From positions 1,302,001 through 1,366,000 of the forward strand of contig NZ_JABTEZ010000002.1 in assembly GCF_015711605.1 (NCBI RefSeq): DNA of 64,000 nt, written 5' to 3'. The notes beneath the pieces are model-generated. The model ran no database searches and was not told where the DNA came from. It worked only from the letters and a program-made list of their open reading frames with translations. This document shows positions 29,032 to 46,911 of the stretch, one piece after another. The position numbers were made by a program, and so were the translations under genes. Every line of letters starts with the position of its first letter. Position 1 is the stretch's first letter. Source of the stretch: Planomonospora sp. ID67723 (GTDB lineage Bacteria > Actinomycetota > Actinomycetes > Streptosporangiales > Streptosporangiaceae).

Positions 29032-30105
29032 TCACAGCAGCGCCTTCTCGACGTCGTCGAGGACCCGCTGGGCCGAGAGCAGCCCGGCGAAGTACCACGG
29101 GCGGTTGGCGACCTGGTGCACCTGCCCGGCCTGGACGGCGGGCAGCCGCGCCCACAGCGGGGACTTCGTGACCTTCTCCAGCGCCTTGTGGTCAGGCTGG
29201 CCCTTGTCGTCCTGACGCACCTGCCAGAACAGGATGTCGGCGTTGATGTCGGTCAGCCGTTCGAAGGACACCTGGGCGTTCTCCTCCGTCGCGGCGGTCA
29301 CCATGGGGTGCAGGGGCAGGCCCAGCTCGGTGAGGACCGCCGAGGAGAAGGCGCCGCGGTAGTCGACCTGGACGTTCGCGGCGTCGCTGCTGACCTGGGG
29401 GCTGGCCACGGTCCTGCCCTTGACGACGGGGGCGAGTTCGGCCGCCAGCGCGGTCGCCCGCCGCTCGTAGGCGCCGAGAAGCTCCCGGGCCTTCTGGTCC
29501 TGGCCGAGAACGGCGGCGACGTAGCGGAAGTCGTCCTTCCACCGCTCGCCGAGCGCGGAACCGCGCGGCACGGTCGGTGCGATCTTCTGGAGCTGGTCCG
29601 CGGTCTCCTTGTTCACGGTGAAGATCAGATCAGGCTTGAGCGCGGCGATGTCCTCGATCGGCAGACCGCTGCCCCAGGCCAGCGGGGTCGTGTTCGCCAG
29701 CGCCGAGGCCACGTGCGGGGCGAATCCGTCGGTCGCACCGCCACCCTGCGTGCCCGCGCCGACCAGCGGGATGCCCAGGGCCACCATCGCGTCGACGTCG
29801 GTGTCCCCGAGGACCGAGACGATGCGCTGCGGCTTCGCCGGGACGACGACGGTGCCCCAGCTCGACTGCACGGTTCGCGTGCCGTCCGGGTTGGCGGTGA
29901 CCGCCCCCACGCCGTCGGGAAGGGCGGAGACGTCGGCCTGGTTCGCCTGGCCGGACCGGGAGGGTTGCGCGGCGGCCGGAGCCGTACTGGACGAGGGCGT
30001 CGCAGCGGTGCCGCCGCATCCCACGAGCAGGGCTGCGGACAGCAGGGCGGTGGTCGCGGCTAGGGACGGGCGCACGATGGTGTTCCTGTTCTTTCGAGAG
30101 TGCAC
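29032..30105 (-). CDS. Iron-siderophore ABC transporter substrate-binding lipoprotein
   Basis: The 357-residue FecB/FhuD-type protein has a basic N-terminus, a hydrophobic stretch and lipobox LLVGC, so it should be lipid-anchored. A Ser/Ala/Pro linker leads to the binding fold (PQRIVSVLGDTDVDAMVALGI, IEDIAALKPDLIFTVNKETADQLQKIAPTV, the long connecting helix, PWYFAGLLSAQRVLDDV). It should capture a ferric siderophore for the two permeases just upstream in the same operon (45-bp gap). GTG 30105 gives the better signal peptide, while GTG 30075 has the better ribosome binding site. Class III fold and operon point to iron, but cobalamin or haem cannot be excluded. Confidence 0.88.
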   Translation of the reverse strand: MHSRKNRNTIVRPSLAATTALLSAALLVGCGGTAATPSSSTAPAAAQPSRSGQANQADVSALPDGVGAVTANPDGTRTVQSSWGTVVVPAKPQRIVSVLGDTDVDAMVALGIPLVGAGTQGGGATDGFAPHVASALANTTPLAWGSGLPIEDIAALKPDLIFTVNKETADQLQKIAPTVPRGSALGERWKDDFRYVAAVLGQDQKARELLGAYERRATALAAELAPVVKGRTVASPQVSSDAANVQVDYRGAFSSAVLTELGLPLHPMVTAATEENAQVSFERLTDINADILFWQVRQDDKGQPDHKALEKVTKSPLWARLPAVQAGQVHQVANRPWYFAGLLSAQRVLDDVEKALL

Positions 30106-30150
30106 CGGGCGCGGATGCGCTCCGGCTTTCGGAGGTCTGCCGGCAGCGGG

Positions 30151-31218
30151 CTAGCCGGTCCGGTTGGCCCGGACGAGCAGCCACATGAGGCAAGGGCCGC
30201 CCAGAGCGGCGGTCACGATTCCGACGGGCAGCTCCGTGGGGGCGAGCACCACCCGTGCGGCGATGTCGGCGATGACCACGAGCGCCGCACCGGCGAGTGC
30301 GGAGTTGACCATGGGGACCGTCGACGAGCGCGTCACCATGATCGCGATGCGCGGTGCCGCCAGGGCCACGAAGGCGACCGGTCCGGCCCCCGCCGTGGCG
30401 ACCGCGGCGAGGACCACGGCCACCACGATCAACGCCGCCCGGGAGCGCTCCACCGACAGCCCGAGCGCCCTTGCGGTGTCGTCACCGAACCGGATGACCG
30501 TCAGGTTCCGGGTCAGCGCCAGTGCCGCGGGCACCAGCACGAGAAGGGCGACCCCGACCGGGACGGCGTGCTCGAAGCCGCGTCCGCTGAGACTGCCGGT
30601 CAGCCACACGGAGGCGCGCAGGGCGTCGTTGATCTCGGCCCGGAGCAGGAGGTATTCGATGAAGCTGGTCAGCAGCGCCGCCGCGCCGATGCCGACCAGG
30701 ATCAGCCGCAACCCGGCCAGCCCTCGCCGCCAGGCCAGTGCGTACACCACCGCGGCGGTCGCGAGGGCCCCCGCCAGGGCGGCCGCGGTGATCCCGGCCA
30801 TGGAGGCGGTCTCACCGCCGAGCACGATGACGGCCACGGCCGCGGCCGAGGCGCCCGCCGTCACCCCGAGTACGTCGGGGCTGGCCAGCGGGTTTCTGGC
30901 GATCGACTGTGTGATCGCGCCGGACACTCCGAAAGCCGCCCCGACGAGGGCGCCGGTCAGCACTCGGGGCAGCCGCACCTCCTGGACGATGTACACGACG
31001 GCGGAGTCGCCCCGTCCCAACAGCGCGGCGGGAACGTCGCCGAGCGGCGCGGGGAAGTTGCCGATGCCGAACGCGACCAGGCCGCTCGCCAGGAACACCG
31101 CCGCGAACGCGATCGCGGTCAGAGCCGAGCGCGGCCGGACCGCCACCGACAGGCCGTGGCGCGTCCGGAGGGTCCACGCGCCGGGAAGGCGGACCGTCTG
31201 CCGCTGGAGGCTCATCAT
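30151..31218 (-). CDS. FecCD-family ABC transporter permease
   Basis: The 355-residue protein has about nine to ten membrane helices. It carries the FecCD motifs LPRVLTGALVGAAFGVSGAITQ, NPLASPDVLGVTAGAS and GPVAFVALAAPRIA, plus a C-terminal LPVGIVTAALGGPCLMWLL. It forms the membrane channel with the permease encoded just upstream (ATGATG start overlapping that stop). The ATP-binding subunit is not encoded nearby and must come from elsewhere. Confidence 0.93.
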   Translation of the reverse strand: MMSLQRQTVRLPGAWTLRTRHGLSVAVRPRSALTAIAFAAVFLASGLVAFGIGNFPAPLGDVPAALLGRGDSAVVYIVQEVRLPRVLTGALVGAAFGVSGAITQSIARNPLASPDVLGVTAGASAAAVAVIVLGGETASMAGITAAALAGALATAAVVYALAWRRGLAGLRLILVGIGAAALLTSFIEYLLLRAEINDALRASVWLTGSLSGRGFEHAVPVGVALLVLVPAALALTRNLTVIRFGDDTARALGLSVERSRAALIVVAVVLAAVATAGAGPVAFVALAAPRIAIMVTRSSTVPMVNSALAGAALVVIADIAARVVLAPTELPVGIVTAALGGPCLMWLLVRANRTG

Positions 31219-32261
31219 CCGAGGACCTTCCTGCGGCGGACGAACACGATGAACACCGGGGCACCGATCGCCGCGGTGACGATGCCGACCTGGAGTTCGC
31301 CCGGCGAGGCGACGACCCGCCCGGCGATGTCGGCGGTGAGGAGCAGGATCGCCCCGAGCAGGGCGCTGAACGTCACGACCACGCGGTGGTCGAGCCCGAC
31401 CAGTGTCCGGGCGGCGTGCGGCACGACCAGGCCGACGAATCCGATGGGACCCGCCGCGGACACGGCGGCTCCGGTGAGCACGGTGACCGCCGCCGCGCAC
31501 AGCGCCCGGCCCGCCCAGAGCCGCTGCCCGAGGGAACGGGCGACGTCGTCACCGAGCGCGAGGGAGTCCAGCGTACGGCCGCAGGCGATCGCGAGGACCA
31601 GTCCGGCCAGCAGGAACGGTGTCACCTGTCCGACCAGGGTGCTGTCACGACCGGCCAGGGCGCCCACCACCCAGTACCGGTACTCGTCGAGGACCTGCGT
31701 GTCGGTGAGCGTCAGCGCGGAGGTCACGGCTCCCAGGAAGACGCTCGCCGAGACTCCGGCCAGAGCCAGCCTGACCGGGGTCGCACCGCCGCGGCCCGTG
31801 GAACCCAGCAGGTAGACCGCCGTCGCCGACGCCGCGGCGCCGGCGAAGGCGAACCATACGTAACCGGACGGGGAGTCGATGCCGAATCCCACGATGGCCA
31901 CCACGACGGCGAACGAAGCCCCGGCGTTGACGCCGAGGACGCCCGGGTCGGCCAGAGGATTGCGGGTCAGCCCCTGCATGATGGCGCCCGCCGCTCCCAG
32001 GGCCGCCCCGGCCAGAAGGCCGAGGATCGTACGCGGCAGACGGAACTCCCGCACCACTTCTTCGTTCTCCGTACCCGACGGGCTGAACAGGGCCCCCAGC
32101 ACCTCGCCCGGCGGCACCGCTCGCGCGCCGACCGCCAGACTCGCGATCACCACGATCACCAGCGTCACGCCCGCGCCCGCGATCCACGCGCGACGTACGG
32201 CGGGCGACCGGCGCTCGGCTCGAGAGGACGGGCCGTGCTGCCTCTGCGCGAGTGCCGTCAC
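31215..32261 (-). CDS. FecCD-family ABC transporter permease
   Basis: The 348-residue protein is the paired half of the iron-siderophore channel. It has LPRTILGLLAGAALGAAGAIMQ, NPLADPGVLGVNAGAS, GPIGFVGLVVPHAAR and GELQVGIVTAAIGAPVFI, with about nine membrane helices. GTG 32261 overlaps the stop of the FhuF-like gene (GTGA) and has AGGTGG upstream. An earlier GTG at 32276 is less well placed. Confidence 0.92.
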   Translation of the reverse strand: MTALAQRQHGPSSRAERRSPAVRRAWIAGAGVTLVIVVIASLAVGARAVPPGEVLGALFSPSGTENEEVVREFRLPRTILGLLAGAALGAAGAIMQGLTRNPLADPGVLGVNAGASFAVVVAIVGFGIDSPSGYVWFAFAGAAASATAVYLLGSTGRGGATPVRLALAGVSASVFLGAVTSALTLTDTQVLDEYRYWVVGALAGRDSTLVGQVTPFLLAGLVLAIACGRTLDSLALGDDVARSLGQRLWAGRALCAAAVTVLTGAAVSAAGPIGFVGLVVPHAARTLVGLDHRVVVTFSALLGAILLLTADIAGRVVASPGELQVGIVTAAIGAPVFIVFVRRRKVLG

Positions 32262-33142
32262 GACACCACCTGCCACTCGGCGGCGATGCGTGCCCGTGCC
32301 TCGTCCGTCTGGCGGGGACAGGTGAAGCAGACGTCGGCGACGTGGCTGAGCTTGTAGAAGTAGCAGCAGCTCTGCCGGATACGGCTGACGTGCCGCCGGC
32401 CGCGGACGTCCTCCACGGTGCGCACGGTGGACGAGCGCGTGAACGGGGGCTTCCCGCCGGGAAGCAGCAGCCGGCTGTCCCTCATGGCGGCTCCCAGATC
32501 ACCCCGGCAGCGGGCGACGTCCAAGGGGGCGCTGTCGAGAGCGTCGGCGAAGGCTCCCGTGAGGGCTCGACGCCCCAACCTGGTCAGCGGCCCGAAGACG
32601 CCGACGAAGCGCTCGGCGTGAACGGCCACCTGCTCGCGAACCCTCGCAGCCAATGCCGCCTCGTCGGCCACCACCCGGGCCTGCGGGTGGTCGGCGAAGG
32701 GGTCGTCCGGCAGGCAGGTGAAGCCGGGCGACAGGAAGGCGATCCGCACCGGCCACGGATCCTGGCCGTCGTGCCGGAAGGCCACGTCGGTCACACCGAT
32801 GTCAGGTGTCCGTCGAACCAGGTGGAACAGCGCCCCGGCGGCCCAGGCGACGACCTCGGCGTAGGCGGCGGCCAGGCAGGCGCTCACCGTGGTCTCCGGG
32901 GCCTGCCCGTTCCGCTCGCCGAGAACGGCGGCCATGCGGGTCCGCCATCCCAGGAAGAACCCGGGATCACCGGTCGCGTCGGCGCACCGCGTCCAGCCGG
33001 CCCCGTCCACCGGTCCGGCCCCGTCCACCGAGGTGGACATGACGAAATCGGCCCACTCGACCATCGCGGTCAGCCGTTCCAGGGGCTCCCTGAGCGGATG
33101 CTCCGCAAACGCCCGGGGAGGGTAAAAGCACGCCGCTTCCAC
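32258..33142 (-). CDS. FhuF-like ferric-siderophore reductase
   Basis: The 294-residue protein ends with the FhuF [2Fe-2S] cluster motif C-C-x10-C-x2-C (SCCYFYKLSHVADVCFTC), which distinguishes this family of siderophore-iron reductases. The rest is the usual poorly conserved helical body. It should reduce ferric iron in the cytoplasm after uptake by the coupled permeases. The start is set at GTG 33142 because the iron box (33156-33174) occupies the upstream part of the open frame. The longer frame to 33184 would be translated through the operator. First gene of the four-gene iron operon. Confidence 0.87.
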   Translation of the reverse strand: MEAACFYPPRAFAEHPLREPLERLTAMVEWADFVMSTSVDGAGPVDGAGWTRCADATGDPGFFLGWRTRMAAVLGERNGQAPETTVSACLAAAYAEVVAWAAGALFHLVRRTPDIGVTDVAFRHDGQDPWPVRIAFLSPGFTCLPDDPFADHPQARVVADEAALAARVREQVAVHAERFVGVFGPLTRLGRRALTGAFADALDSAPLDVARCRGDLGAAMRDSRLLLPGGKPPFTRSSTVRTVEDVRGRRHVSRIRQSCCYFYKLSHVADVCFTCPRQTDEARARIAAEWQVVS

Positions 33143-33155
33143 GACCCATCCGTTC

Positions 33156-33174
33156 TTAGGTTTGCCTAACCTTA
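33156..33174. promoter_or_regulatory. IdeR/DmdR iron box
   Basis: TTAGGTTTGCCTAACCTTA matches the DtxR/IdeR consensus TTAGGTTAGGCTAACCTAA at 16 of 19 positions. It lies 13 bp before the FhuF-like start and is the only such box seen in the window. It should keep the iron operon off when ferrous iron is plentiful. Confidence 0.8.
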
Positions 33175-33183
33175 GCATCGGCA

Positions 33184-33336
33184 TACCTGATCTTCGAATG
33201 CGGCCGGATCGAGCCCCTCGCCGTACAGGCCGGGACCGGTTCCCCGGCGTACGCGGTGGGGGTGTTCGGCGCGGTCAGCGTGCTGCTCGGCGGGACATTC
33301 GCGCTGCGGACGGGGCCCCGGGCCGTTCCGGCCTGA
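33184..33336 (+). pseudogene. Possible 3' remnant of a membrane protein gene
   Basis: A 50-codon plus-strand frame ends at TGA 33336. It contains a credible membrane helix (SPAYAVGVFGAVSVLLGG) followed by a basic, short tail (FALRTGPRAVPA), like the last helix of an MFS-type transporter. No start codon or 5' part exists; the frame runs straight out of the iron box. A perfect hairpin follows 2 bp after the stop. It is probably a leftover of a deleted gene. Confidence 0.3.
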
Positions 33337-33338
33337 CC

Positions 33339-33357
33339 TCCGGTCCACCGGACCGGA
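33339..33357. terminator. Hairpin after the remnant frame
   Basis: TCCGGTCC-ACC-GGACCGGA forms an 8-bp perfect stem. It lies between the remnant stop and the SagB-type gene stop (33430), so it may terminate either strand. Confidence 0.5.
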
Positions 33358-33429
33358 TCGGCGGACGGCCCCGCCTGCGCGTCCCCGCCACGCCGCCGGG
33401 CTCGCGCCGTGCAGCCTCCGGAAGCCGTG

Positions 33430-34218
33430 TCATGCGGCTTCGCCGATGAGAACGGCGTAGAGGGCGATTTCCTGGCAGCCGTCCACTGCGAGCATGGCGT
33501 TGAGGGCGTCGTCGTTGAATCCGCCCACCGGGACGGCGCCCAAGCCCTCGGCCTTCGCGGCGAGCAGGAGGTTCTGGGCGATGTGGCCCGCCTCCAGAAG
33601 GGCGAAGCGGTAGCCGCGCTCGCCGTACTTGAACTTCACCCGGTCCATGAACGCGACGAGGACGATGCACGCCGCGGCCCCCGCGACGGCCTCGGTGAGG
33701 CCGGTGGCCGCCGCCAGTTCCGCGGTCGGATCGCCCTCACCCAGGCGCTGGAGGCTGTGCTGGGATAGGTGGTAGAAGTACGGGCCCGGTGCGACGTCGT
33801 CCACGCGCAGCGCGACACAGTAGATGTCGACGGGGAACAGGGCTCCACCGGAGGGCGCGGTCCGCAGCCGCCAGGTGACGCCCTCGTCCGTCGTCAGGGT
33901 CCCGGTGATGCCGTCACCGAAATAGAGGACCCTGGCGAGGGTCCCCAGGCCGATCCGGCCGCCGGAGAATTCACGGCAGGAGCGCCGGCCCAGCATGACG
34001 GATTCGATGCTCTCCTGGTTGGGGGTGAAGTCCCGGGGCAGCGGGATCGTCGGATACCCAGGGTAATGAGTGAAAGGCGCCGTGACGACGCTGCCGATCT
34101 CGGGCGACTCGTTGACGGCGTTTATGACCGCGTAGGCCATGTAGTCGGACGGATGCAGTTTGGAGTTCTCGTGGTAGACCTCCGACGGAGAGAGGTCGAA
34201 GCCATCGGGAATCGACAT
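33430..34218 (-). CDS. SagB-type azoline dehydrogenase (TOMM B protein)
   Basis: The 262-residue protein belongs to the SagB/nitroreductase-like FMN oxidoreductases. It has RRSCREFSGGRI (flavin phosphate contact), APSGGALFPVDIY, YFYHLSQHSLQRL and EAGHIAQNLLLAAKAEGLGAVPVGGF. In TOMM/LAP pathways this enzyme oxidises azolines made by the YcaO complex to thiazoles or oxazoles. It is the last of four genes downstream of the precursor, 24 bp after the YcaO gene, with GGAGG before the ATG. Length is close to the stand-alone SagB of streptolysin S-like clusters. Confidence 0.9.
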   Translation of the reverse strand: MSIPDGFDLSPSEVYHENSKLHPSDYMAYAVINAVNESPEIGSVVTAPFTHYPGYPTIPLPRDFTPNQESIESVMLGRRSCREFSGGRIGLGTLARVLYFGDGITGTLTTDEGVTWRLRTAPSGGALFPVDIYCVALRVDDVAPGPYFYHLSQHSLQRLGEGDPTAELAAATGLTEAVAGAAACIVLVAFMDRVKFKYGERGYRFALLEAGHIAQNLLLAAKAEGLGAVPVGGFNDDALNAMLAVDGCQEIALYAVLIGEAA

Positions 34219-34242
34219 GACGGTGACCTCCGCCGGTAGCGG

Positions 34243-35562
34243 TCAGGGATACGGGTGAGGGAACGGGTTGATCGCGTGCAGAGGCGTCGGCGAATGCCTG
34301 AGTCCCAGCCGGACCGGGACGTCCCGCCACCGGTCGCCACCGAGGAAGGGCAGTCTGTGGTCGCCTTCCATGGGCACGCATTCGGGTATGAGCACCTTGA
34401 CGACGAAAAGGCCGCAGGCTTCGAGGTCCGCACTGGTGAGGTCCACCGCCAGCGGTTCCAGAGCCGCTTGTTCGACGGCTTCGCAGCAGCGGTCCACGGC
34501 CGCCCCGGGGTTCGGCGCGGCGAGTGACGGAATGGCCGAGAGGCGGACTCGCCCTCCGTCCCGGTCCAGAAACCCGAATGCCTCATCCAGGCCGCCGAAC
34601 GCATAGAGATGCATGCGGTCCTCGAAGGTCCTGACGTCGTCGAAAGACGGGAAGGATCGGCGCTCGCGGTTGCGGGCGTGGGCCATCCACTGCAGCCCCT
34701 GAGTCAGTTCGAGCAGGGTTTTGAGGACGGCGCGCGCGGGATCGGGGTGGCATGCTCCACCGACGACGGTCCGAGCCGGCGAATGGCGCTTGTCGCGGAG
34801 AAGGCCGAAACACGCGGGAACGGAGAGGTCCAGGGTGGTGTACCAGAGCCGGTAGTCCAGCCACGGCCTGTCGAAACGGGAGCCGAAGGTCTCCAGCAGG
34901 CCGCTTGCCTCGTCGATGACGATCCGCGGGCGGGAGAGGCGATTCCGCCACACGATCATGAACGCGTCACGTTCGATCACCTCGCAGAGACCGCCCATGA
35001 TCGCCTCGGCGCGGATGGGCGCACAGGCGGTACCGGTGGAGACGGCCTCGGCGACGATTTGTTCGCCCCGGTCGGCGAACTGCCGGGGGTACGGCATGTG
35101 CACCAGGCTGGCGGGCACGAGGGTGCGACCACCGCTGGTGAGGTTGTCGGCCGCGGTCCAGGCGATCGAGGTGTCGTCGGCGAACCCGGTGTAGCGGCTG
35201 GTCTCGTACTGTTCGCCGGTGAACAGCGCCCAGCGCTCCGGGGGGACCGCGGCTGTCCCGGCGCCGTGCAACTCGGAGTAGGACGCCAGCGTGAGGTCTT
35301 CGGGGTGGACGAACGCGCAGGCGTAGCGTTCCGCGCTCTCTCCGACGGCCGCGCGGCGGGCCGCTTCGCGAGTGAGCCCGGCGCCGCTGCCGTTGGCGGT
35401 CGCCTGCTCGGGCAGACCGTAGCCCACCAGGTTCCCGCTCTGCGCCACGGTCACGAAGACGTCGGGATCGGAGCGCTCGATCTCCAGATCGGCGGACCAG
35501 GTGACGATGCCGGTCAGGGGGTCGGCTATGGAGAGGGGCGGTGGCTCAACCCGCGCGTTCAT
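34243..35562 (-). CDS. YcaO-domain azoline cyclodehydratase (TOMM D protein)
   Basis: The 439-residue YcaO protein shows the ATP/Mg-binding acidic motifs ESAERYACAF and CEVIERDAFMIVWRN, the VVGGACHPDPARAVLKTLLELTQG helix, and a proline-rich C-terminus NPFPHPYP. That end resembles the PxPxP tail needed for cyclodehydration in TOMM YcaOs. It should activate backbone amides with ATP to turn Cys/Ser/Thr into azolines. Its partner, the C protein, overlaps it by 17 bp upstream, so this is a two-protein C + D system. The substrate is almost certainly the precursor encoded two genes upstream. Confidence 0.93.
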   Translation of the reverse strand: MNARVEPPPLSIADPLTGIVTWSADLEIERSDPDVFVTVAQSGNLVGYGLPEQATANGSGAGLTREAARRAAVGESAERYACAFVHPEDLTLASYSELHGAGTAAVPPERWALFTGEQYETSRYTGFADDTSIAWTAADNLTSGGRTLVPASLVHMPYPRQFADRGEQIVAEAVSTGTACAPIRAEAIMGGLCEVIERDAFMIVWRNRLSRPRIVIDEASGLLETFGSRFDRPWLDYRLWYTTLDLSVPACFGLLRDKRHSPARTVVGGACHPDPARAVLKTLLELTQGLQWMAHARNRERRSFPSFDDVRTFEDRMHLYAFGGLDEAFGFLDRDGGRVRLSAIPSLAAPNPGAAVDRCCEAVEQAALEPLAVDLTSADLEACGLFVVKVLIPECVPMEGDHRLPFLGGDRWRDVPVRLGLRHSPTPLHAINPFPHPYP

Positions 35563-36637
35563 CCGTCGTCCGCGTCCTTTCTTCCCACAGCGTGCGCGAA
35601 GGGCGGCTCCGGTGGACGCCGCAGGAGGGGCAGCGCGGCAACTTGAGGACAGGATGCGCGTTGACGACGCCGGACATGTAGTCGAACGCGAGCATCCGAG
35701 CCCTGGTGACGGGTTCTCCGATTCCCGTGACGAACTTGACGACCTCGAAGGCGACCCAGTCGGTCGACAGCGGGATCATCGGCCGCGCCCGGTCCGCGCC
35801 GGCTGCGGAGGCCATGGGCCCCATCCCGTCCAGAGCGGCCCGGCGCCGGACGGTGAAACAGCGATAACACGCCGTCTCCCGCGGAATCACCAGCGGCCCG
35901 ACTTCCACCGCGACGCCCCTGCGACGGTAGAACAGGTACGGCGTGCCGCGCTGGAGGCAGAGCGAGTTGACCGTCTCGGCGGCGCTCTCCTCGAACTCGT
36001 CCGGGCAGTAGACGACCAGTTCGGGAGAGAACCCGAACAGCTCGTCCGTCAGCTCACGCCCGTCGTCGATCAGCTCGAGATCCACGAACGGATTCAGCCG
36101 GCGGAGCTCGGCGACGATCTCGGCCCGCCGGGGCGCGGGATCGGCGCCGCCGGCGGGAGCGCCGACGATCGTGCCGATGCCGGTCAGGGCGAGCAGGCGC
36201 ATCAGATCCGCGCCGACCGCGCCGAGACCGACGATGACCACGGTCGTGTCCTTCAGGAGTGCCTGGAGATCGGCGCCGGTCGCCTGCCACGCCGATCCCG
36301 ACGCTCGCAGCGGCTCGGCCCGCAGCCCTGCGAACAGTTCCATCTGGCTCGCGTAGCGGGTGAGCTCCTCCCCGGAGAGCCGGCGGGACTCCGAGGTGCC
36401 GCACTCTCGTAGCAGGCCCGCGCGGTCGATGCCGTCGAGAGCCCTGAATATCCGATCGACGTCGAATCCCGAGACCAGGAGCGCCCCGTACACGCCGGAA
36501 ACCGAGTACGAGCCGTCGAGAAGCGAGACGAGCTCCTTCAGCAGCCCGTCGTCGGCGTCGCCCAGCACTTTGCGGATGTCCGCCGGATCGGCGCCGGCCA
36601 CCAGGACCGGCCGGTGGTAGGCGTCCAGATGCGTCAT
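35546..36637 (-). CDS. TOMM C protein: RRE plus ThiF-like domain
   Basis: The 363-residue protein has an N-terminal winged-helix-like segment (about 10-80, ADPADIRKVLGDADDG...GLLREC) fitting a RiPP recognition element. An E1/ThiF-like Rossmann domain follows (TTVVIVGLGAVGADLMRLLA). Two CxxC pairs (CYRC and CPSC) probably hold zinc. Such proteins bind the leader peptide and deliver the core to the YcaO enzyme. No adenylation activity is expected. Its ATG overlaps the precursor stop by one base, tying leader-binding protein to substrate. Confidence 0.88.
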   Translation of the reverse strand: MTHLDAYHRPVLVAGADPADIRKVLGDADDGLLKELVSLLDGSYSVSGVYGALLVSGFDVDRIFRALDGIDRAGLLRECGTSESRRLSGEELTRYASQMELFAGLRAEPLRASGSAWQATGADLQALLKDTTVVIVGLGAVGADLMRLLALTGIGTIVGAPAGGADPAPRRAEIVAELRRLNPFVDLELIDDGRELTDELFGFSPELVVYCPDEFEESAAETVNSLCLQRGTPYLFYRRRGVAVEVGPLVIPRETACYRCFTVRRRAALDGMGPMASAAGADRARPMIPLSTDWVAFEVVKFVTGIGEPVTRARMLAFDYMSGVVNAHPVLKLPRCPSCGVHRSRPSRTLWEERTRTTDERAG

Positions 36638-37407
36638 CAGGGGTGCGCGGGTGCGACGGTGACGGGCGGGTCGCTGTGATAGGCCACGGAAGTGGTGGTG
36701 CAGCCGTTGCAGCACGTGCTGCTCGTCGCGACGAGCCACCTGGGGCTGTTTGAATACCGCAGCCGCTGGATGGTCGAGAACTTCACCATCTGCGGTGTCT
36801 GCGACATGAGCGAGGCGATGCCCTCGGACGGGTAGATCGGCCTGGCGTAACTGTCGTTGATGATCTGATCGAAGGCGACGGTGAGCATCTGCTCGATCTG
36901 CCTGGAGTCGGGCGGTGCATTCCTGAACCGCGTTTCACCCAAATCGACCTTGAATCTGCCGAACCGGCTGGCGATCTCGTCGGCCGACTGCTCGGACAGC
37001 TCGTCGTTGGTGATCGCGCTGGAGATGATTTTGCCGTCTCTCAGCTCGTGCAGCGTCCACTGGGAAACGTAGAAGGGGTTGTGCTCGACCCGCACCTCGG
37101 TGGCCACGACGCCGTTGCTGTTGTGCACCGCGATGCCCACCGCGATGTGGAAGGGGTCGTCGCGCCTGACCGGGCGGAAACTCGGCAGGATTCCGAGCAG
37201 GTTCGGTGCGATGACGTCGTCGTCGTTCTCCATGGCCGGCGCGTAGAGAAAAACCTTCGCACGGGAGAAGACGAACTCGAACCCGTCATCGCTGAAATGG
37301 CTGAGGAGATAGCGGAAATCCGGGCTGCGTTCCCGCATCTGCTGAAGATACGTCATCGCGTGGGACGGATCTAATTGAATCATGGAGCCTGACGGGGCCT
37401 CGGCCAT
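36637..37407 (-). CDS. Putative TOMM precursor with a large N-terminal domain
   Basis: The 256-residue protein starts at ATG 37407 with CAGGGG 7 nt upstream. Residues 1-215 look like a folded, mixed alpha/beta domain (FRYLLSHFSDDGFEFVFSRA, HIAVGIAVHNSNGVVATEV, FDQIINDSYARPIYPSEG) that I cannot assign to a family. The end is quite different: residues about 224-256 carry VATSSTCCNGCTTTS (Cys232, 233, 236 among six Thr and several Ser) and a Pro/Val/Ala tail. Dense Cys/Ser/Thr is the hallmark of an azole-forming core such as streptolysin S. Being first in an operon with C, D and B enzymes strongly supports this. The leader is far longer than usual (20-100 residues). The alternative is an enzyme with a modified tail. 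Confidence 0.75.
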   Translation of the reverse strand: MAEAPSGSMIQLDPSHAMTYLQQMRERSPDFRYLLSHFSDDGFEFVFSRAKVFLYAPAMENDDDVIAPNLLGILPSFRPVRRDDPFHIAVGIAVHNSNGVVATEVRVEHNPFYVSQWTLHELRDGKIISSAITNDELSEQSADEIASRFGRFKVDLGETRFRNAPPDSRQIEQMLTVAFDQIINDSYARPIYPSEGIASLMSQTPQMVKFSTIQRLRYSNSPRWLVATSSTCCNGCTTTSVAYHSDPPVTVAPAHP

Positions 37408-37471
37408 GATGCATCCCCTGCACATTAAGTGTTCGATTGTGTCCCGTGCGCTACAAATGGAAGATGACGCC

Positions 37472-37499
37472 ATAGTAGACCCGGGGTATCGGGTGTCAA
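37472..37499 (-). promoter_or_regulatory. Promoter of the TOMM operon
   Basis: On the minus strand, TTGACA (37499-37494) and TACTAT (37477-37472) are separated by 16 nt, close to the consensus. This predicts a start near 37465 and a leader of about 58 nt before the precursor ATG. It separates the TOMM genes from the methyltransferase gene, which ends at 37589. Confidence 0.55.
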
Positions 37500-37588
37500 T
37501 ACCGAGGCGTTCTTTCCCGGCGTCACGGGCACCGTGCTGATCGGCGCGGCGCGCGATGCCCGCGCCGGCCGTACCGGGCCGCGGTCGG

Positions 37589-38359
37589 CTACCGGGGACC
37601 CGGCGGACCCGGAGTGAGGGAGAAGACGACAAGGTCCATGGCGCTGGTGATCGGGCCCGCGTCAGGGGAGCGGCCGGCGTCGCGCATCAGGTGTTCGAGG
37701 CCCTCGGCGAACTGGTCGTCGGTGAGGCGCCGCAGCGGGCTGTGCGCGCGCAGCGCCACCTGGGCCGCGAAGTCCGCCAGCGTCGGGGCCGAGGACTGGA
37801 CGACCGTGGCGTGGTGCTCGCGACGCAGCCCGGCCTGCCGCAGCGCGCGCCTCAGAGCGGTCAGAGCCTGGGCCCGCTCCTCGGCGAAGGCGACGAGTGC
37901 GGGGAAGTAGGTGTGGAACAGGGTCGGCCGCTCGGCGTCGTGGAAGGCGCCGCGGACGATGAACCGGCCCCCGGGGGCCAGCGTCCGCCTCACCTCGGCG
38001 GCGCACCGGTCGAAGTCCCCGATGTGGTGGACGACCTGGGACGCCCAGATCGCCTGGAAGGCATGGGACGCGCACGGTATCGCCTCGGCCCGGCCGCCCA
38101 CCACGAACACCCCGGAGCCGGCGGCGGAGGCCGCGCGTTCGCGCATCTCCGGCGCCGGCTCGACGGCGACCACCGGAACCGAGAAATGCCGGGCCAGCGC
38201 GTGGGAGAAGCGGCCCGTCCCCGCCCCGAGGTCCAGGACCGGGCCGCCGGAGACCGCGACGAAGGCCGCTACGGCGCGCATCCACGCGGTCACCGTCCCG
38301 GCCGGAAGCCGGCGCCCGGCCTGGTAGCCGCGTGCGAGCCCGCCGCTGAAATCCGTCAC
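37589..38359 (-). CDS. Class I SAM-dependent methyltransferase
   Basis: The 256-residue protein has the SAM motif VLDLGAGTGRFSHALA, acidic motif II (VAVEPAPEMRERA), and IWASQVVHHI plus LAPGGRFIVRG for motifs III-IV. The fold is that of small-molecule or N-methyltransferases. It starts at GTG 38359, overlapping the APH-family stop (GTGA), so it is translated with the STAND/APH genes. It lies 180 bp upstream of the TOMM precursor, so it could methylate that peptide. The separate TOMM promoter makes this only a suggestion. Confidence 0.88.
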   Translation of the reverse strand: MTDFSGGLARGYQAGRRLPAGTVTAWMRAVAAFVAVSGGPVLDLGAGTGRFSHALARHFSVPVVAVEPAPEMRERAASAAGSGVFVVGGRAEAIPCASHAFQAIWASQVVHHIGDFDRCAAEVRRTLAPGGRFIVRGAFHDAERPTLFHTYFPALVAFAEERAQALTALRRALRQAGLRREHHATVVQSSAPTLADFAAQVALRAHSPLRRLTDDQFAEGLEHLMRDAGRSPDAGPITSAMDLVVFSLTPGPPGPR

Positions 38360-39351
38360 CGGCCCGCCCACCGCCGCAGGATCGCCTCGACTCCGGCGGC
38401 GTCTGCGTGCGGGGAGACGCCCCAGTGGCGGTAGGCGTTGTTGAGCTTCTCGGTGAGCTTGGCGACGAGATCGGGCTCCGGCTCGGGAGCGGAGGACGGA
38501 TCGACGAACAGCTGGGCGTAGCGGACGGTGTCCACGACCGCCGACTTGATCTGCTCGTGGGTGAGGTAGACCTCCAGGTCGTGCTCCCAGCCGCGGGTGT
38601 ACTCCGGCGGGAGGGTGCGCGCCCAGAGCCGCAGGACACGGTCGCGTTCGTCGGGGAGGTAGCCCATCTTGTGGAAGTGCACGGCCAGTTCGTAGACCGG
38701 ATCCCCCCACAGGGCGAGCTCCCAGTCCAGGAAGACCGTCCGGCCGTCATCGATGATCATGTTCTTGCGGTGGATGTCGGCGTGCACGCACACCAGCGGG
38801 CGCGCGGTCAGCGTCGGCCACGCCGACTCCGCCGCGGAGACCGGGTCGGCCGGGATCCGGAACGCGGTGTACAGCCACTCGTAGTCGGCGACGAGCGTGG
38901 AGTACACCCACATCGTCAGGTCGGAGAGTTTCCGCCCGAACCCGGGGGTGTCCTCGCCCGCCGGCCAGGCGGGCGGGAGAGCCGGGAGCTTCTCGCGGGG
39001 GACCTCCACGAGCTGGGCGAGGAGCCGTACGACATCGGCGGGGACGTGCGCGGGAACCGGGACGCCCCTGGGGGCCAGGTCGTTGAGAACCCGGCCGTGG
39101 ATGAACTGGTGCACCTGGAAGACCGGGTCCGCCGAGGTGTGCAGCAGCCGCGGCGCCTGGGGGACGTAGGGGGCGATGGCGGGGAGGACCTCGTCCTCGC
39201 GCCAGAGCCGCAGGTCCATCACGTCCGCGCCGTCGATCGGGATCCGCACGTTGACCGGCCCGTCCGGGGTGCTGACGCGGACGTTCTTGTTGTAGTAACC
39301 CGCGGCGGCGTCCATGTGCGCCCGGGCGCTTTCGTACAGCTCCATGGTCAT
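38356..39351 (-). CDS. APH-family phosphotransferase
   Basis: The 331-residue protein has the aminoglycoside phosphotransferase/choline kinase core: VCVHADIHRKNMIIDD (catalytic HxD...N loop) and VFLDWELALWGDP (metal-binding Asp), followed by a helical C-lobe. Family members phosphorylate small molecules such as antibiotics, homoserine or choline. Nothing here fixes the substrate. It is sandwiched with 4-bp overlaps between the STAND ATPase and the methyltransferase, so a joint task is likely, such as modification or self-resistance for the nearby RiPP. Confidence 0.87.
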   Translation of the reverse strand: MTMELYESARAHMDAAAGYYNKNVRVSTPDGPVNVRIPIDGADVMDLRLWREDEVLPAIAPYVPQAPRLLHTSADPVFQVHQFIHGRVLNDLAPRGVPVPAHVPADVVRLLAQLVEVPREKLPALPPAWPAGEDTPGFGRKLSDLTMWVYSTLVADYEWLYTAFRIPADPVSAAESAWPTLTARPLVCVHADIHRKNMIIDDGRTVFLDWELALWGDPVYELAVHFHKMGYLPDERDRVLRLWARTLPPEYTRGWEHDLEVYLTHEQIKSAVVDTVRYAQLFVDPSSAPEPEPDLVAKLTEKLNNAYRHWGVSPHADAAGVEAILRRWAGR

Positions 39352-41774
39352 TGCTTTCCCCCCAGGACCGAGTCGATCAGTGCAGCCATCCGGGACTCCA
39401 GCGCGGCCAGCGAGTCCAGCGGCTCGATCTGGCCGCGCGCCTGCTCGGCCGCCCGCGTCACCTGGTCGTCGGGCAGGCCGATCCGGTTCAGCGCCAGATC
39501 GGCGGCCACGATCAACGTGGGGTACACCTCGGCCTCGATGAACTCCTCGACCGCCCAGACCAGCGACCGGGCCGCCTGCCCGGGCGCGCCCCGGCGGGCG
39601 TGGAAGAGCGCGCAGAACAGCTCCGCCCTGGCCCGCCCGGAACGGTACCCCGCCCGCTCCAGGTATTCGCAGGCCAGCGTGAACGAGTCGGAGGCGGCAG
39701 GATCCTCGCCGAGCCGTGTCTGGGCGAGCGCCAGCGCGGTGTAGGTCTTGCCGAGCTCGTGCAGCGCGGCGAGCTCCTCCTGCTGCCTGATCGCTTCGGC
39801 CGCGAGCCGTACGGCTGCCGCCGGGTCGTCCCACGCCGCCAGCTCGACCCGGTTGGTGGCGATGTTGGCCAGCCCCACCATCGACCCCGCCCGTGCGTAG
39901 CAGTCGTGGGCCTCCTCCAGCCGCCGGGCGGCGTCGGCGAGGTCGAGGTGGAACCGGTGGCCCAGGTGCATGAGCCGCACCACGTCCCCGCGCAGCACCC
40001 AGTCGTCGGCGGGAGCGTCGCGCAGCACCTGCTCCGCGAGGGAGAACGCGGTGGTGAACCGCCCCTGCCACATGGGAACCTCGGCCACCCACAGGCCGGC
40101 GGTCGGGCGGACCGGTCCCCGGTGCCGTTCCCAGACGAGGGAGTAGATGCGGCCCGCCTCGGTGGTGTCCCCGGCGAGCCGTTTGGCGTGCGCCGCGGCC
40201 ATCGCCAGCCGCGCCCCGGCCGCGCGCTCCACTGCGGGGAACGCATCCGGCCCGGCGAGCGCCGCGGCCTGCACGGCGTCGCCCATGGTGATCGCCGCCT
40301 CGGCGTACAGGCAGCGGGCCGCCTCCGCCAGCTCCTCGCCGAGATCGAGTTCCGCCAGATCGGCGAGGATGCCGTCGCCCGCCTGCTTGCCGCCGCGGCG
40401 GATGCTGCGATCGGCGTAGTCCAGGACGTCGTCCGCGCTGAGCACCCCCGTCCGGACCCCGTGGTAGACCGCCTCCCGCAGCGCCGTCCCGTCGTCGGCG
40501 GTCGCGCGGGCGTCCCAGGCGGCGCGCAGGTGCGCGTGCACCTCCCGCGCCGCCTCGGGACTGAGCCGCTCCCGCAGCGCGGCGACCATCAGCTGGTGGA
40601 GCCGCAGGCCGTGCTCCCCGGCCGGATACACGAACGAGTAGGCGGTCAGCGACTCCCAGGTGATCCGGTCCCCGGGCATGTCGAACGCCTCCGCCAGCGT
40701 GCGGAAGATCTCGAAGTCGAAGGTCCGGGAGACGCTCAGCAACTCCAGCAGCCGCACCTCGGCGGGGGCCACGTGGTTCAGGAACCTCTGCAGGATCTCC
40801 TCCGAGGAGACCGTCCGCGCGTTCCCGGCCTGGGTGTCCAGCGCCAGGTGCAGGTAGAACGGCAGCCCTTCGGAGGCCCGCGCGATCGCGGTCCCGCCGG
40901 GGATGCCCGCCTGCTCCAGCAGCTCCAGCCGGGCGGTCATCGGCAGCCCGGTCACCGGGCACTCCCGGATGACGTCCGCCCATTCGGAGTCGTAGGCCTG
41001 CCAGCCGAGGGGTTCCCGGCTGGCCACCACCACCAGGCCGCGGTCGAGCTGGGCGATCAGATCCCGCAGCCACGCGTCGGCGCCGGAGACCCGCCCGCTC
41101 TTGACCGGGATGGGGACCAGCGCCTCGTACGCGTCGACGAACACCACGTACGGCCTGTCGTCGGCGGCCCGCAGATCCTGGGCGAACAGGTAGGTGACCG
41201 CGTCGAGCACGTCGGTGTTCGACAGCTCGTCCAGCCGCTGGAGTATCTCGTCGTCGTTGACCACGCGGCGGTGCCGCCGGGACGAGCGCGCCCGCTGGGC
41301 GAGTCTCAGCAGCCCCACGGCCGTCCCGAACACCGGCAGGCCGGCCGTCTCGTCCAGGATCGAGGTGAGGACCTCGCTTTCCTGGGCGAACGGCAGATCC
41401 GACTGGCCGATCTTCAGGTGCGGGTGCAGCCGCTGCCACAGCACCGCGTACGCGATGTCGAAGTGGTCGAACACCACGCCCTGCCGGCCGAGGTCCGTCC
41501 GCAGGACGGCGAGCGCGTCCTCCTGCTGCCGCATCGCGGGCACCTGCAGGTCCAGCAGAGCCGTCCGGCACCCGTGCTCGGTCGCCCGGTTCCTGAGCTC
41601 GCGAAGCAACCGGGATTTGCCGATCCCGCCCACACCGGTCACGCTGAAGACCCGGGGGCCCCGCCGGTCGGAGATGTCCCGCAGCTCGTGCGCGAAGCTC
41701 TCCAGCACGTTCTCGCGGTCGACGAACCGCCGGTCGAGCGCGGCCACCCGACGAAATCGCGGCTGCAGCGACAT
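39348..41774 (-). CDS. STAND-type AAA ATPase with TPR-like C-terminus
   Basis: This 808-residue protein has a P-loop GVGGIGKSRLL (47-57), a Walker B region RPYVVFVDAYEAL, VVVASREPL (sensor) and a winged-helix-like segment. A long helical region (about 430-808) rich in alanine/leucine follows, of the TPR type (ALAQTRLGEDPAASDSFTLACEYLERAG). Such NB-ARC/STAND proteins are signal-responsive regulators or scaffolds. No DNA-binding domain is evident, so it is not a plain SARP/AfsR regulator. It heads an operon with the APH-family kinase and the methyltransferase. GAGGAG lies 5 nt before ATG 41774. Confidence 0.87.
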   Translation of the reverse strand: MSLQPRFRRVAALDRRFVDRENVLESFAHELRDISDRRGPRVFSVTGVGGIGKSRLLRELRNRATEHGCRTALLDLQVPAMRQQEDALAVLRTDLGRQGVVFDHFDIAYAVLWQRLHPHLKIGQSDLPFAQESEVLTSILDETAGLPVFGTAVGLLRLAQRARSSRRHRRVVNDDEILQRLDELSNTDVLDAVTYLFAQDLRAADDRPYVVFVDAYEALVPIPVKSGRVSGADAWLRDLIAQLDRGLVVVASREPLGWQAYDSEWADVIRECPVTGLPMTARLELLEQAGIPGGTAIARASEGLPFYLHLALDTQAGNARTVSSEEILQRFLNHVAPAEVRLLELLSVSRTFDFEIFRTLAEAFDMPGDRITWESLTAYSFVYPAGEHGLRLHQLMVAALRERLSPEAAREVHAHLRAAWDARATADDGTALREAVYHGVRTGVLSADDVLDYADRSIRRGGKQAGDGILADLAELDLGEELAEAARCLYAEAAITMGDAVQAAALAGPDAFPAVERAAGARLAMAAAHAKRLAGDTTEAGRIYSLVWERHRGPVRPTAGLWVAEVPMWQGRFTTAFSLAEQVLRDAPADDWVLRGDVVRLMHLGHRFHLDLADAARRLEEAHDCYARAGSMVGLANIATNRVELAAWDDPAAAVRLAAEAIRQQEELAALHELGKTYTALALAQTRLGEDPAASDSFTLACEYLERAGYRSGRARAELFCALFHARRGAPGQAARSLVWAVEEFIEAEVYPTLIVAADLALNRIGLPDDQVTRAAEQARGQIEPLDSLAALESRMAALIDSVLGGKQ

Positions 41775-41996
41775 CTGATCTCCTCGGGGGCGGGAGCAAT
41801 GATCAGAGTTTGCCTGGATCACCGTGGCGATCCACCATCCTAGACGGTGCCCCCGGACATCCGCCGTCGGAAAAGACGGCCTCGAACGCCGGGGGCGGCG
41901 GTCACCGGCGTTCTCCCCCGCCCGCCTGCGGGCCGTCACCGGGCCGGTCCGGGTGCGGAGGCGAACCGGACCCGCGGGAGCTGCGTATCCCTGAAT

Positions 41997-42413
41997 GTGA
42001 AGACATATCCGCGCATCGCCGCGCTCGCTCTCGCGGCCGTGTTCTCCGCGGCCTGCTCGTCCGCCGCAGGCTCACCGGCCGAGGAGCACGGCCAGGCCGC
42101 GCCGCAGGGGAAACCGCCCACCGTCGAGGAACTGGCCGCCAAGGTCGGCTGCGAGCCGGTGATCCAGATCGAGGCGGCCGAGCTGCGGCAGGGACACTGC
42201 AGGACGCCGGCGGGGGAGTTCTTCCTCACCACCTTCGTCACCCAGCAGGGCAAGGACGAGTGGATGGACGCCGCTCCGGAGTACAACCCGCACCTGGTCG
42301 GGAACCTGTGGACCGCGCTGTCGAGCCGCGCGGTGCTGGAACACGTCCAGCAGAAGCTGGGCGGCGACCTGCACCTGACGGACCACCGGACCAAGACGCC
42401 CGCTCCCGGCTGA
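41997..42413 (+). CDS. Small secreted lipoprotein
   Basis: The 138-residue protein begins (GTG) with KTYPRIAALALAAVFSAAC: a basic n-region, a hydrophobic core and lipobox SAAC. The mature part is short, acidic and without a recognised domain (VEELAAKVGCEPVIQIEAAELRQ, GEFFLTTFVTQQGKDEWMDAA). It keeps two further cysteines that could form a disulfide. It is transcribed divergently from the STAND gene and has a strong terminator after it. Function unknown. Confidence 0.72.
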   Translation: MKTYPRIAALALAAVFSAACSSAAGSPAEEHGQAAPQGKPPTVEELAAKVGCEPVIQIEAAELRQGHCRTPAGEFFLTTFVTQQGKDEWMDAAPEYNPHLVGNLWTALSSRAVLEHVQQKLGGDLHLTDHRTKTPAPG

Positions 42414-42420
42414 CCACAGC

Positions 42421-42450
42421 CGGAGCCGGTCCCTGCTGGGACCGGCTCCG
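42421..42450. terminator. Perfect 13-bp hairpin terminator
   Basis: CGGAGCCGGTCCC (42421-42433) and GGGACCGGCTCCG (42438-42450) pair fully around a TGCT loop. It starts 8 bp after the lipoprotein stop and also lies downstream of the convergent permease gene, so it could serve both. Confidence 0.8.
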
Positions 42451-42557
42451 GGCCCGCGACCGTGAAACCGGTCTCCGCGTCCCCGCCCGTCCGGGCGGGC
42501 CGGGGCTCCGCACCCTCCGCCGCGCTGCCCCGGCCGGCAGGGGCGCCGGCCCGGCGC

Positions 42558-43829
42558 TCAGCCGGCCGAGGCGCCGGCGCGGCGCTTGGCCCAGATGTCG
42601 AAGGCCACGGCGGCGAGCAGGACCAGGCCCTTGAAGAGCATCACCCGCTCGCTCGGGGCGCCGATGAGGGACATGCCGTTGTTGATCACGGCCATGATGA
42701 GGCCGCCGGTGATCGCGCCGACGACCTTGCCGACCCCGCCCTGGACGGCGGCGCCGCCGATGAACGCGGCCGCGATGGCGTCCAGCTCGAAGCCGTTGCC
42801 CGCGGTGGGGCCGGCCTGGTTGAGCCGCCCGGCGAAGATGATCCCGGCCAGCGCGGAGAGCACCCCCATGTTGACGAAGATCCAGAACGTGACGGACTTC
42901 ACGTTGATCCCCGACAGGCTCGCGGCGTGCACGTTGCCGCCGATGGCGTAGATGTGGCGGCCGAAGACGGCGCGGTTGGTCAGGAGCGTGTAGCCCAGCA
43001 CGAGGAGTGCCAGGAGCAACAGGACCCAGGGCAGGTTCTTGAACCGGGCGAGCTGGACGACGACCGTCATCACCACCACGGCGACGGCGGCCATCTTCAG
43101 GGCGAACAGCGGCAGTGCGTCGACCTGCTGCCGGTAGCCGATACGTCCCTGGCGGGCCCGCCACTGCGTGCCGACGGTCCCGGCCACGGCGGCCAGCCCG
43201 AGCAGCAGGGTGAACAGGTCGGCGCCGCCGAGCGGGCCGAGCCCGATGTTGCCCAGGTAGCCGGGGAGGAAGCCGTTGGAGAGGGTGCGCACCTCGTCGG
43301 GGAAGGGGCCGATGCCCTGGTTGCCGAGGACGGTCAGGGTCAGCGCCCGGAACACCAGCATCCCGGCCAGGGTGACGATGAACGCGGGGATGCCGAAGTA
43401 GGCGATCCAGTAGCCCTGCCAGGCTCCGATCAGCGCGCCCGCGACGAGCGTGACGAGGAGCGCCAGCGGCCACGGCGTGTCCATCTCGACCATCAGCACC
43501 GCCGCGATGGCGCCGCAGAGCGCCACCACCGATCCCACCGAGAGGTCGATGTGACCGGCGATGATGATCAGGATCATGCCGATCGACAGGATCAGGACGT
43601 AGGAGTTCTGAACCATGATGTTGGAGATGTTCTGCGGGCTGAGCAGCTCACCCCCGGTCAGGACGGAGAACAGCACGATGATCAGCGCGAAGGCGACGTA
43701 GATGCCGCTCTGCCGCAGGTTGACGGACAGGCGTGTGCCCGGCGCCTTGGCGCGGGGCGACGGGAGGCCGCCGCCGGCCGGCGCGCCCTCCCGGGTCGTG
43801 ACCTTTCCGCTGGTCGTCTCGGCCATCAT
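42558..43829 (-). CDS. mmsB: Multiple-monosaccharide ABC transporter permease (MmsB/GguB-like)
   Basis: The 423-residue protein has about ten membrane helices and the BPD_transp_2 motifs [19 protein letters not shown] and [24 protein letters not shown] long central insertion (residues about 160-250, [18 protein letters not shown]...) is typical of the GguB/XylH branch for xylose, arabinose, glucose or galactose. It forms a channel with the ATPase upstream (ATGATG overlaps its stop) and the binding protein. The operon runs away from the LacI-family regulator. Confidence 0.9.
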
Positions 43830-45367: not shown

Positions 45368-45448
45368 GTCGTCCGTCTCCCCGTGGGCGGCGCGGCGGGC
45401 GGGCCCCGGCCACCGGCCGGAGGCTCCGCCCGCCGCGCGCCGTCCGTC

Positions 45449-46576
45449 CTACTTGAGCTGGTCTTCGGTGTAGTAACCGGAGTCGACGAGGACCTTCTTG
45501 TAGTTGTCCTTGTAGACGATGATGGGTTCGAGCAGGTAGGACGGGACGACCTTGTTGCCGTTGTCGTAGTCCTTGGTGTTGTTCACCTCGGGCGTGCCGC
45601 CCTTGAGCACGGCGTCGGCCATCTTGACGGTCACCGCGGCCAGCTCGCGGGTGTCCTTGTAGATCGTGGCGTACTGCTCGCCGGCGATGATCGACTTGAC
45701 CGAGGCGGCCTCGGCGTCCTGGCCGGTGACGACCGGGTAGGGCTGGTCGGCGGTGCCGTACCCGCTGCTCTTGAGGGCCGACAGGATGCCGATGGACAAC
45801 CCGTCGTACGGCGAGAGCACACCCTGGACCTTGGCGTCGGAGTAGGCCTTGGTGATCAGGTCCTCCATGCGCTTCTGCGCGGTGGCCGGGTCCCAGCGCA
45901 GGATGGCGACGGTCTTGAAGTCGGTCTCGCCGCTCTTGACGACCAGGGTGCCGGAGTCGATGTACGGCTTCAGCGTGTCCATCGCGCCGTTGTAGAAGAA
46001 GGTGGCGTTGTTGTCGTCGGGGGAGCCGGCGAAGATCTCGATGTTGAACGGGCCCTTCGCGGTGCCGTCGGAGCCGTCCTGCTTCTTCAGGCCGAGGCCG
46101 ACCAGCAGGGAGGTCGCCTGCTGCACGCCGACCTTGTAGTTGTCGAAGGTGGCGTAGTAGTCGACGTTGGGGGTGTTGCGGATGAGGCGGTCGTAGGCGA
46201 TCACCGGGATCTTCTTGTCGGCCGCCTGCTGCAGCTGGGTGGTGATCGCGGTGCCGTCGATCGAGGCGACGATCAGGAGCTTGGCGCCCTTGGTGATCTG
46301 GTTCTCGATCTGGTTGACCTGCGTGGGGATGTCGTTCTCGGCGTACTGGAGGTCGACCTGGTAGCCCAGCTTCTCCAGGGCGCTCTTGACGTTGTCGCCG
46401 TCGTGGATCCAGCGCTCGGACGACTTGGTGGGCATGGTGACGCCGATCAGGGAGCCGGCCGATCCGCCGGGGCTCTCGGTGGCCTGGTCGACGGTCTTGG
46501 TGCTCGAGCCGCAGGCGGTCATCGTCATGGCGAGCGCCAGACCCACCGGCACGGCGACCAGCTTCGCGAACCTCAT
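45449..46576 (-). CDS. chvE: Sugar-binding lipoprotein (ChvE-like)
   Basis: The 375-residue protein has a lipoprotein signal (lipobox MTAC). The periplasmic-binding fold of the ChvE/xylose-arabinose branch follows: [67 protein letters not shown] and [14 protein letters not shown]. Residues around SERWIHDG and YDRL match ChvE-type sugar contacts. It should deliver arabinose, xylose, glucose or galactose to MmsAB. It is first in its operon, with AAAGGAGA before the ATG and a perfect 14-bp operator 68 bp upstream. Confidence 0.9.
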
Positions 46577-46644
46577 GTTCTCTCCTTTGTGACACGGTGT
46601 GGATCTGGATGCGGTGTGGCCGTCCCGGTGCTGTGTCATGGGGC

Positions 46645-46801: not shown

Positions 46802-46911
46802 TCCGGGGTGGCCACTAGTTAAGGACTCCAAAGACGCCACGTCAAGAGGATGTTAACGGGACGTTTCAGTGTGACCTGACCGTAATGAAGAAGGCTCTTG
46901 ACGGCACCCAT

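Follow-up and report, generated by a model that had tools for sequence, protein, structure and literature searches.

Can an azole-forming YcaO pathway act on a folded protein? The question is raised by a 64,000-nucleotide stretch of DNA from Planomonospora sp. ID67723 (contig NZ_JABTEZ010000002.1, positions 1,302,001 to 1,366,000; hereafter the window). An earlier note, made from the sequence alone, proposed that a 256-residue protein encoded there is an azole-peptide precursor whose leader is a folded domain. We consider a folded-domain TOMM substrate in this operon very likely. Whether the operon as a whole is a compact four-gene azole pathway acting on a protein, with the azole tail retained, we regard as evenly balanced between true and false.

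A four-gene operon with a complete azole-forming enzyme set

The 256-residue reading frame was borne out exactly, on the minus strand and with the ribosome binding site AGGGG upstream. The features of the locus are as follows.

37472..37499, minus strand: sigma-70-like promoter TTGACA-16-TACTAT (motif scan)
37415..37419, minus strand: ribosome binding site AGGGG (upstream of the precursor ATG)
36637..37407, minus strand: precursor protein, 256 aa plus stop (ORF call and homologues)
36757..37407, minus strand: N-domain, residues 1-217, modelled as alpha/beta and matching no known family (model and tail-free homology)
36688..36726, minus strand: predicted core TSSTCCNGCTTTS, residues 228-240 (tail scans and conservation)
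36640..36687, minus strand: unconserved C-terminal extension VAYHSDPPVTVAPAHP, residues 241-256 (0/16 identical to the Verrucomicrobial protein)
35546..36637, minus strand: ThiF-type TOMM C protein (TIGR03882) with a probable N-terminal RRE (profile match; RRE inferred by eye)
34243..35562, minus strand: YcaO cyclodehydratase (TIGR03604), ending ...PHPYP (profile match)
33430..34218, minus strand: SagB-type FMN dehydrogenase (TIGR03605) (profile match)

In the window protein an N-domain of about 220 residues is thus followed by TSSTCCNGCTTTS, and the genes behind it are tightly packed. The precursor stop and the C-protein start overlap in TGATG, the C-protein gene shares 17 bases with the YcaO gene, and SagB starts 24 bases further on. 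The promoter is the sole promoter-like site found within 32900-38400 (shuffle mean 0.3). All three enzyme genes exceed curated cut-offs, which makes the set of C protein, YcaO and SagB complete: the C protein scores 56.6 bits against 36.9 for TIGR03882 ("TOMM precursor leader peptide-binding protein"), YcaO 264.8 against 219.25 for TIGR03604 (SagD family) and SagB 128 against 78.4 for TIGR03605. The proposal that the precursor opens an operon with RRE-ThiF, YcaO and SagB genes therefore stands for the three enzymes; its RRE part is an assignment by eye, and no RRE model matched the C protein.

Relatives in two phyla keep the same gene neighbourhood

We found three homologues, two in genomes of the window's bacterial family (G598 and G631) and one in a Verrucomicrobia MAG (G100), and all four members, the window included, have both the N-domain and the tail, with the same enzyme set encoded alongside. 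The MAG was the one relative returned by a pattern scan of 84,980 species, one genome per species, with six exact peptides of the window protein; the majority of distant relatives would escape such a scan because the patterns are exact window peptides. Its precursor has 326 residues and the same tail, and is 39% identical to the window protein. The C-protein gene comes next and is cut by the contig end, and the rest of the operon (the C-protein remainder, YcaO and SagB) starts another contig of the MAG; the two contig ends have the residues LNSVAL in common. YcaO and SagB are each 49% identical between the window and the Verrucomicrobial operon, where SagB is followed by a gene named by eye as enolase.

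The two nearer relatives belong to one genus and emerged from a C-protein search of 345 genomes of the window's order. Having entered through the C protein (L005 and L006), their precursors were picked by tail scan; they are 224 and 225 residues long and adjoin the C-protein gene, with YcaO and SagB following in both. Gene order, precursor-C-YcaO-SagB, is identical in the window, G598 and G631. C-protein matches at E 1e-10 occurred in 22 of the 345 genomes, and such a precursor was seen only in the window's own and the two closest, the remaining ones (L007-L026) being checked by tail scan alone. A profile search with the precursor across the same 345 genomes should reveal tailless relatives within the candidates scored. 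Forty genomes passed E 0.01, and three matches are real (E <1e-100, the window's own among them); the other 37 were taken as chance, with E values of 3e-4 to 9e-3 and at most 60 positions matched, in G048 over the tail stretch.

Further relatives were not found in plasmids, phages, viral contigs, 99 other relatives, 386 other genomes of the Verrucomicrobial phylum, 145 others of its order, 393 others of the class or 265 others of the phylum, sets that overlap one another. In many genomes the searches scored a few of the first-look candidates (for example 7 of 23 in the profile search of the window's order), so that a weak relative could be missed. Within the candidates so scored, no homologue lacked the tail and none lay outside a YcaO locus, the two findings that the earlier note had named as counting against its proposal.

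One gene start needs comment. In G631 (L028 7113-9134) the frame of a universal stress protein is open through into the precursor, in the same frame, giving 673 aa; the probable cause is a lost stop or a frameshift, and the precursor proper would begin at MAGTITEL.

A fixed Cys/Ser/Thr tail

The Cys/Ser/Thr tail of the window protein is not a product of chance. We called core-like any 13-residue stretch with at least 11 C/S/T, at least 3 of them C, and looked for it in the last 45 residues of ORFs of at least 60 aa. It occurred in 1 of 302 such ORFs in the window, 1 of 107 in L027 (G598), 1 of 96 in L028 (G631) and 1 of 64 in L002 (the Verrucomicrobial contig), each time in a precursor, and in none of 289 in L067-L070. 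Allowing the stretch at any position and ORFs down to 20 aa gave 1/122 in window 30000-42000, 1/164 in L027, 1/137 in L028, 1/120 in L002 and 0/116 in L067; the stretches scanned at the four loci hold no second core-like ORF of at least 20 aa. The residues taken as substrate are S-T-C-C-N-G-C-T-T-T-S, in which cyclisable Ser/Thr are plentiful besides Cys. Of the earlier description of this tail as streptolysin-type, the non-chance richness in Cys, Ser and Thr holds good; the likeness to streptolysin is one of composition only.

TCCNGCTTTS is identical at 10 of 10 positions between the window protein and the Verrucomicrobial protein, whose overall identity is 39%, although L002 was most likely retrieved through the tail pattern TCCNGCTT and its tail was hence selected for. 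The 16 residues after the core in the window protein share 0/16 with the Verrucomicrobial protein. The G598 and G631 precursors end SCSCSTSCHGCSSTSTSAI, and in both GGG directly precedes the core, perhaps as a site of cleavage or as a linker.

Could the Cys-rich tail instead escape modification and serve as a metal site or redox tail, the enzymes acting on something else? CC-NG-C could bind metal as it stands. Yet enzyme genes follow the precursor at all four loci, in the window with the stop/start overlap, and the scanned stretches contain no other core-like ORF that might serve as substrate; the abundance of cyclisable Ser/Thr also counts against this reading. We give this reading hardly any credence.

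The N-domain is conserved and matches no named family

Profile searches of Pfam and NCBIfam named no family for the N-domain, and none of the four members matched nitrile hydratase or an NHLP leader in these libraries (max_evalue 10, although HMMER filters out most matches above about 0.1). An AlphaFold2 model from a two-sequence alignment places helices and strands over residues 8-217 with pTM 0.65 and a mean pLDDT of 58; 82 of the 256 residues fall below pLDDT 50, among them the whole of 219-256 and, within the domain, five shorter stretches. This low-confidence model had no clear fold match. The view that the first part of the protein is an ordinary folded domain is supported by the alpha/beta model at pTM 0.65 and, at a mean pLDDT of 58, not proven.

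The N-domains of the two subgroups are very probably homologous in themselves. A profile of the window/Verrucomicrobia pair matched one of the G598/G631 pair with a probability of 96.9 and E 1.5e-10, and after removal of the tail the match stood at a probability of 89.4, E 2e-6 and a score of 45.6. That score lies far above the maximum of 18.7 from 40 column shuffles of the tail-free comparison, and this is why we attribute the homology to the domain itself. The recognition motif L(X)4L, sought by eye, is not common to all members.

Polar motifs conserved in the window/Verrucomicrobia pair (FH-A-GI-VH, HNPF and DSYARP-YP-EG) raise the thought that the N-domain has an enzymatic or binding activity of its own, exerted in cis on the tail or, with the tail as cofactor, on some partner, in the manner of borosins, whose domain is the modifying methyltransferase. 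But HNPF and ARP are not retained in G598/G631, no enzyme family matched, and the low-confidence model offered no clear fold match. We judge this highly improbable.

Domain and tail are constrained in the one close pair

A leader that is discarded should change faster than its enzymes, and the core of a bacteriocin should vary. Both expectations belong to the reading that we take most seriously against tail retention, namely that the product is a conventional linear azole peptide (a bacteriocin or signal), with a giant folded leader that serves only to be recognised and to keep the core inactive until a protease encoded elsewhere releases the azole peptide. The enzyme set is that of ordinary LAPs, which suits such a peptide, as do GGG before the core in G598 and G631 and the unconserved 16-residue extension after the core in the window protein.

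In G598 and G631, the one close pair, the N-domain has changed as slowly as the enzymes have. Its dN/dS values are 0.156/0.401, compared with 0.143/0.337 for the C protein, 0.144/0.365 for YcaO and 0.146/0.426 for SagB; the comparison rests on a single pair because the family has four members only, of which two are 79% alike. This pair agrees in all of its last 22 residues, with 8 of 66 nucleotides different, and the non-zero tail dN of 0.039 we put down to serine codon switches. A slow N-domain and an identical tail follow neither the pattern of a throw-away leader nor that of a bacteriocin core in the G598/G631 pair. Against a released peptide we therefore count a domain constrained like the enzymes in that pair, and a core that is fixed, not hypervariable, both between G598 and G631 and between the window and Verrucomicrobia.

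No recurrent processing or export genes were seen in the flanks

Across the loci, no gene for a peptidase, an exporter or immunity was seen to recur among 20 chosen proteins checked with Pfam (10 from the window and 10 from the G598/G631 loci, their SagB included) and other flanking ORFs inspected by eye; this too speaks against a released peptide. Fifteen window proteins in 29032-47977 were scanned: the ABC genes were confined to uptake sets of the siderophore and sugar types, and no protease family appeared. No MNIO enzyme or DUF2063 partner family occurs among the neighbours scanned. Since peptidases with genes elsewhere remove the leaders of many RiPPs, the lack of a local protease common to these loci is a weak argument.

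Some genes at the G598 locus speak for release. An alpha/beta hydrolase gene (Pfam Hydrolase_4, "serine aminopeptidase") adjoins its precursor on the same strand, and an ABC-transporter-like pair, named by eye, starts about 4 kb away; neither was seen at the other loci. Together they may leave room for local processing or export.

The flanks also hold other genes. The window has a methyltransferase, an APH-family gene, an AAA ATPase, an FhuF_C-like gene and siderophore-type uptake genes; G631 has a universal stress protein and GH65, and G598 has DMFA2_C and SnoaL-like genes. G598 (L027 1207-3729) and G631 (L028 4458-7004) each encode a cation P-type ATPase no more than about 10 kb from the operon. 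Downstream of SagB, on the same strand at window 29032-33184, are the FhuF_C-like gene (a weak match below the cut-off), two FecCD permeases and Peripla_BP_2; we dropped an iron link through the FhuF_C-like and FecCD genes, none of which was seen at the other three loci. Separately, window 42558-47977 encodes a sugar-type ABC transporter (permease, ATPase and binding protein) beside a divergent LacI-family regulator.

The Verrucomicrobial precursor may leave the cytoplasm whole. Its N-terminus reads SRRKAM, an uncharged stretch, K and then AVAQ, which we take to resemble a Tat signal. By a simple rule, a Tat-like start is present in 2 of the 19 L002 ORFs that reach 150 residues, and in 0 of 19 in L067. 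A signal of this kind would export domain and tail together, which counts against release of the tail as a peptide; the other three precursors (window, G598 and G631) have no signal-like N-terminus. TatC and TatA were not found in the MAG by searches that each matched in 11 of 14 control genomes, a result that is not conclusive in an assembly broken into hundreds of contigs, where even the operon is divided between two. Weighing these points with the constraint on domain and core, we rate a giant leader with later release as a serious possibility, short of an even chance.

A possible protein-borne azole tail

Read as a modified protein, the operon suggests a simple sequence of events. The ThiF/RRE C protein would bind the N-domain of about 220 residues; YcaO, going by its enzyme family, would cyclodehydrate Cys/Ser/Thr in the C-terminal tail; and SagB, again going by family, would oxidise the azolines to azoles. 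The azole tail would then remain on the protein and act jointly with the domain as a protein-borne azole group. This last is the least certain step, and on whether the tail stays attached to the domain we come down on neither side. For the Verrucomicrobial member, a Tat-like route would carry the protein, modified and folded, out of the cytoplasm. The fuller picture, a permanent azole tail on a folded protein of 220-256 residues, made by cytoplasmic YcaO/SagB, exported folded in one lineage and with its conserved core in a physiological role such as metal or redox binding, not that of a variable antibiotic, we offer tentatively, at slightly below even likelihood. For the specific job of the azole array, our first guess is metal binding, by analogy with bufferins, though taken by itself it is rather unlikely.

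The system resembles LAP/TOMM pathways in that a substrate whose C-terminal core is rich in Cys/Ser/Thr is encoded next to a C protein, YcaO and a SagB-type dehydrogenase. It departs from them in that substrate, which has 224-256 residues (326 with the Verrucomicrobial signal region), a conserved domain and a fixed core, and in that no transporter or protease was seen to recur. The usual short unstructured leader is replaced by a conserved domain of about 220 residues, with secondary structure modelled at low confidence; among the LAP/TOMM families listed in the consulted passages of PMC4603692, none has such a precursor. Cytolysin (streptolysin S-type) TOMM clusters encode ABC transporters and a CaaX-like protease (PMC4603692), unlike window 29032-47977, where the ABC genes among the 15 proteins scanned are uptake sets.

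A close published parallel is the azole-bearing NHLP/proteusin precursor (MprE/MprC), whose structured leader is used by a YcaO cyclodehydratase (PMC12455567; PMC10858898). These leaders have about 81 residues, resemble nitrile hydratase alpha and are recognised through protein/protein contacts (PMC12455567), a precedent that lends weight to a large leader here as well; their cores are described as hypervariable (PMC4603692). Our domain is far longer, at about 220 residues, and lacks a nitrile hydratase match in four of four members. That TOMM leaders are normally short is thus right as a rule, with the structured NHLP leaders as published exceptions (PMC12455567, PMC10858898). Bufferins are small proteins with MNIO-modified, Cys-derived heterocycles and a Sec signal peptide that act in the periplasm (PMC12452194). 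Compared by description only, they parallel our family in Cys-derived heterocycles, which here are predicted, on a protein with a signal peptide, and differ in using MNIO where YcaO/SagB is encoded here; a signal-like N-terminus occurs in one of our four members only. Borosins likewise fuse the core to a large folded domain (PMC10858898), whereas separate modifying enzymes are encoded in our operon.

The combination described here, an N-domain of some 220 residues, an azole-type core that stays fixed and C/YcaO/SagB alongside in two phyla, was not found in a literature search that included portions of PMC4603692, PMC12455567, PMC12452194, PMC7470986, PMC12710340, PMC10858898 and PMC7136475, most subscription journals lying outside it. 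In the sources so covered, structured leaders recognised by YcaO are already known from NHLP; a domain of this size with a fixed core apparently is not. The suggestion of a new precursor class accordingly keeps its substance, in that what looks like a TOMM-type precursor with a large conserved domain bears the tail and adjoins the enzymes in four of four loci, and loses its claim on structured leaders as such. The domain may be purely a recognition module, a module for self-inhibition or a permanent carrier of the tail, and nothing in the data bears on the second of these.

If a folded protein is decorated here, the reach of azole-forming enzymes extends beyond peptides cut from short leaders, and a fixed core has been kept between phyla. 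With its four genes, the operon would then be a simple model for recognition of a whole domain by a YcaO/C-protein complex, and would raise the question of what azoles do while remaining on a protein. Genome mining that restricts precursor searches to short ORFs would miss such substrates. Were the tail proven to stay attached, this would be more than a variant of known structured-leader systems.

The operon may have moved between phyla

A YcaO tree suggests horizontal transfer of the operon. We combined the four operon YcaO proteins with three other YcaO proteins from two of these genomes. The operon proteins form one clade (99/98) that excludes the other three, and within it the window and Verrucomicrobia are sisters (98/98) although G598 and G631 share the window's family, the placement on which the suggestion rests.

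The genomes also hold YcaO genes of other kinds. Another contig of the window's genome encodes a second YcaO (L068 7151-8482), which groups with another G631 YcaO outside the clade. In G631, at L069 5684-9834, where the tail scan found no Cys/Ser/Thr-tailed ORF, a YcaO-type ORF of 644 aa precedes genes judged by eye to be ABC-transporter-like, an arrangement more typical of TOMM loci.
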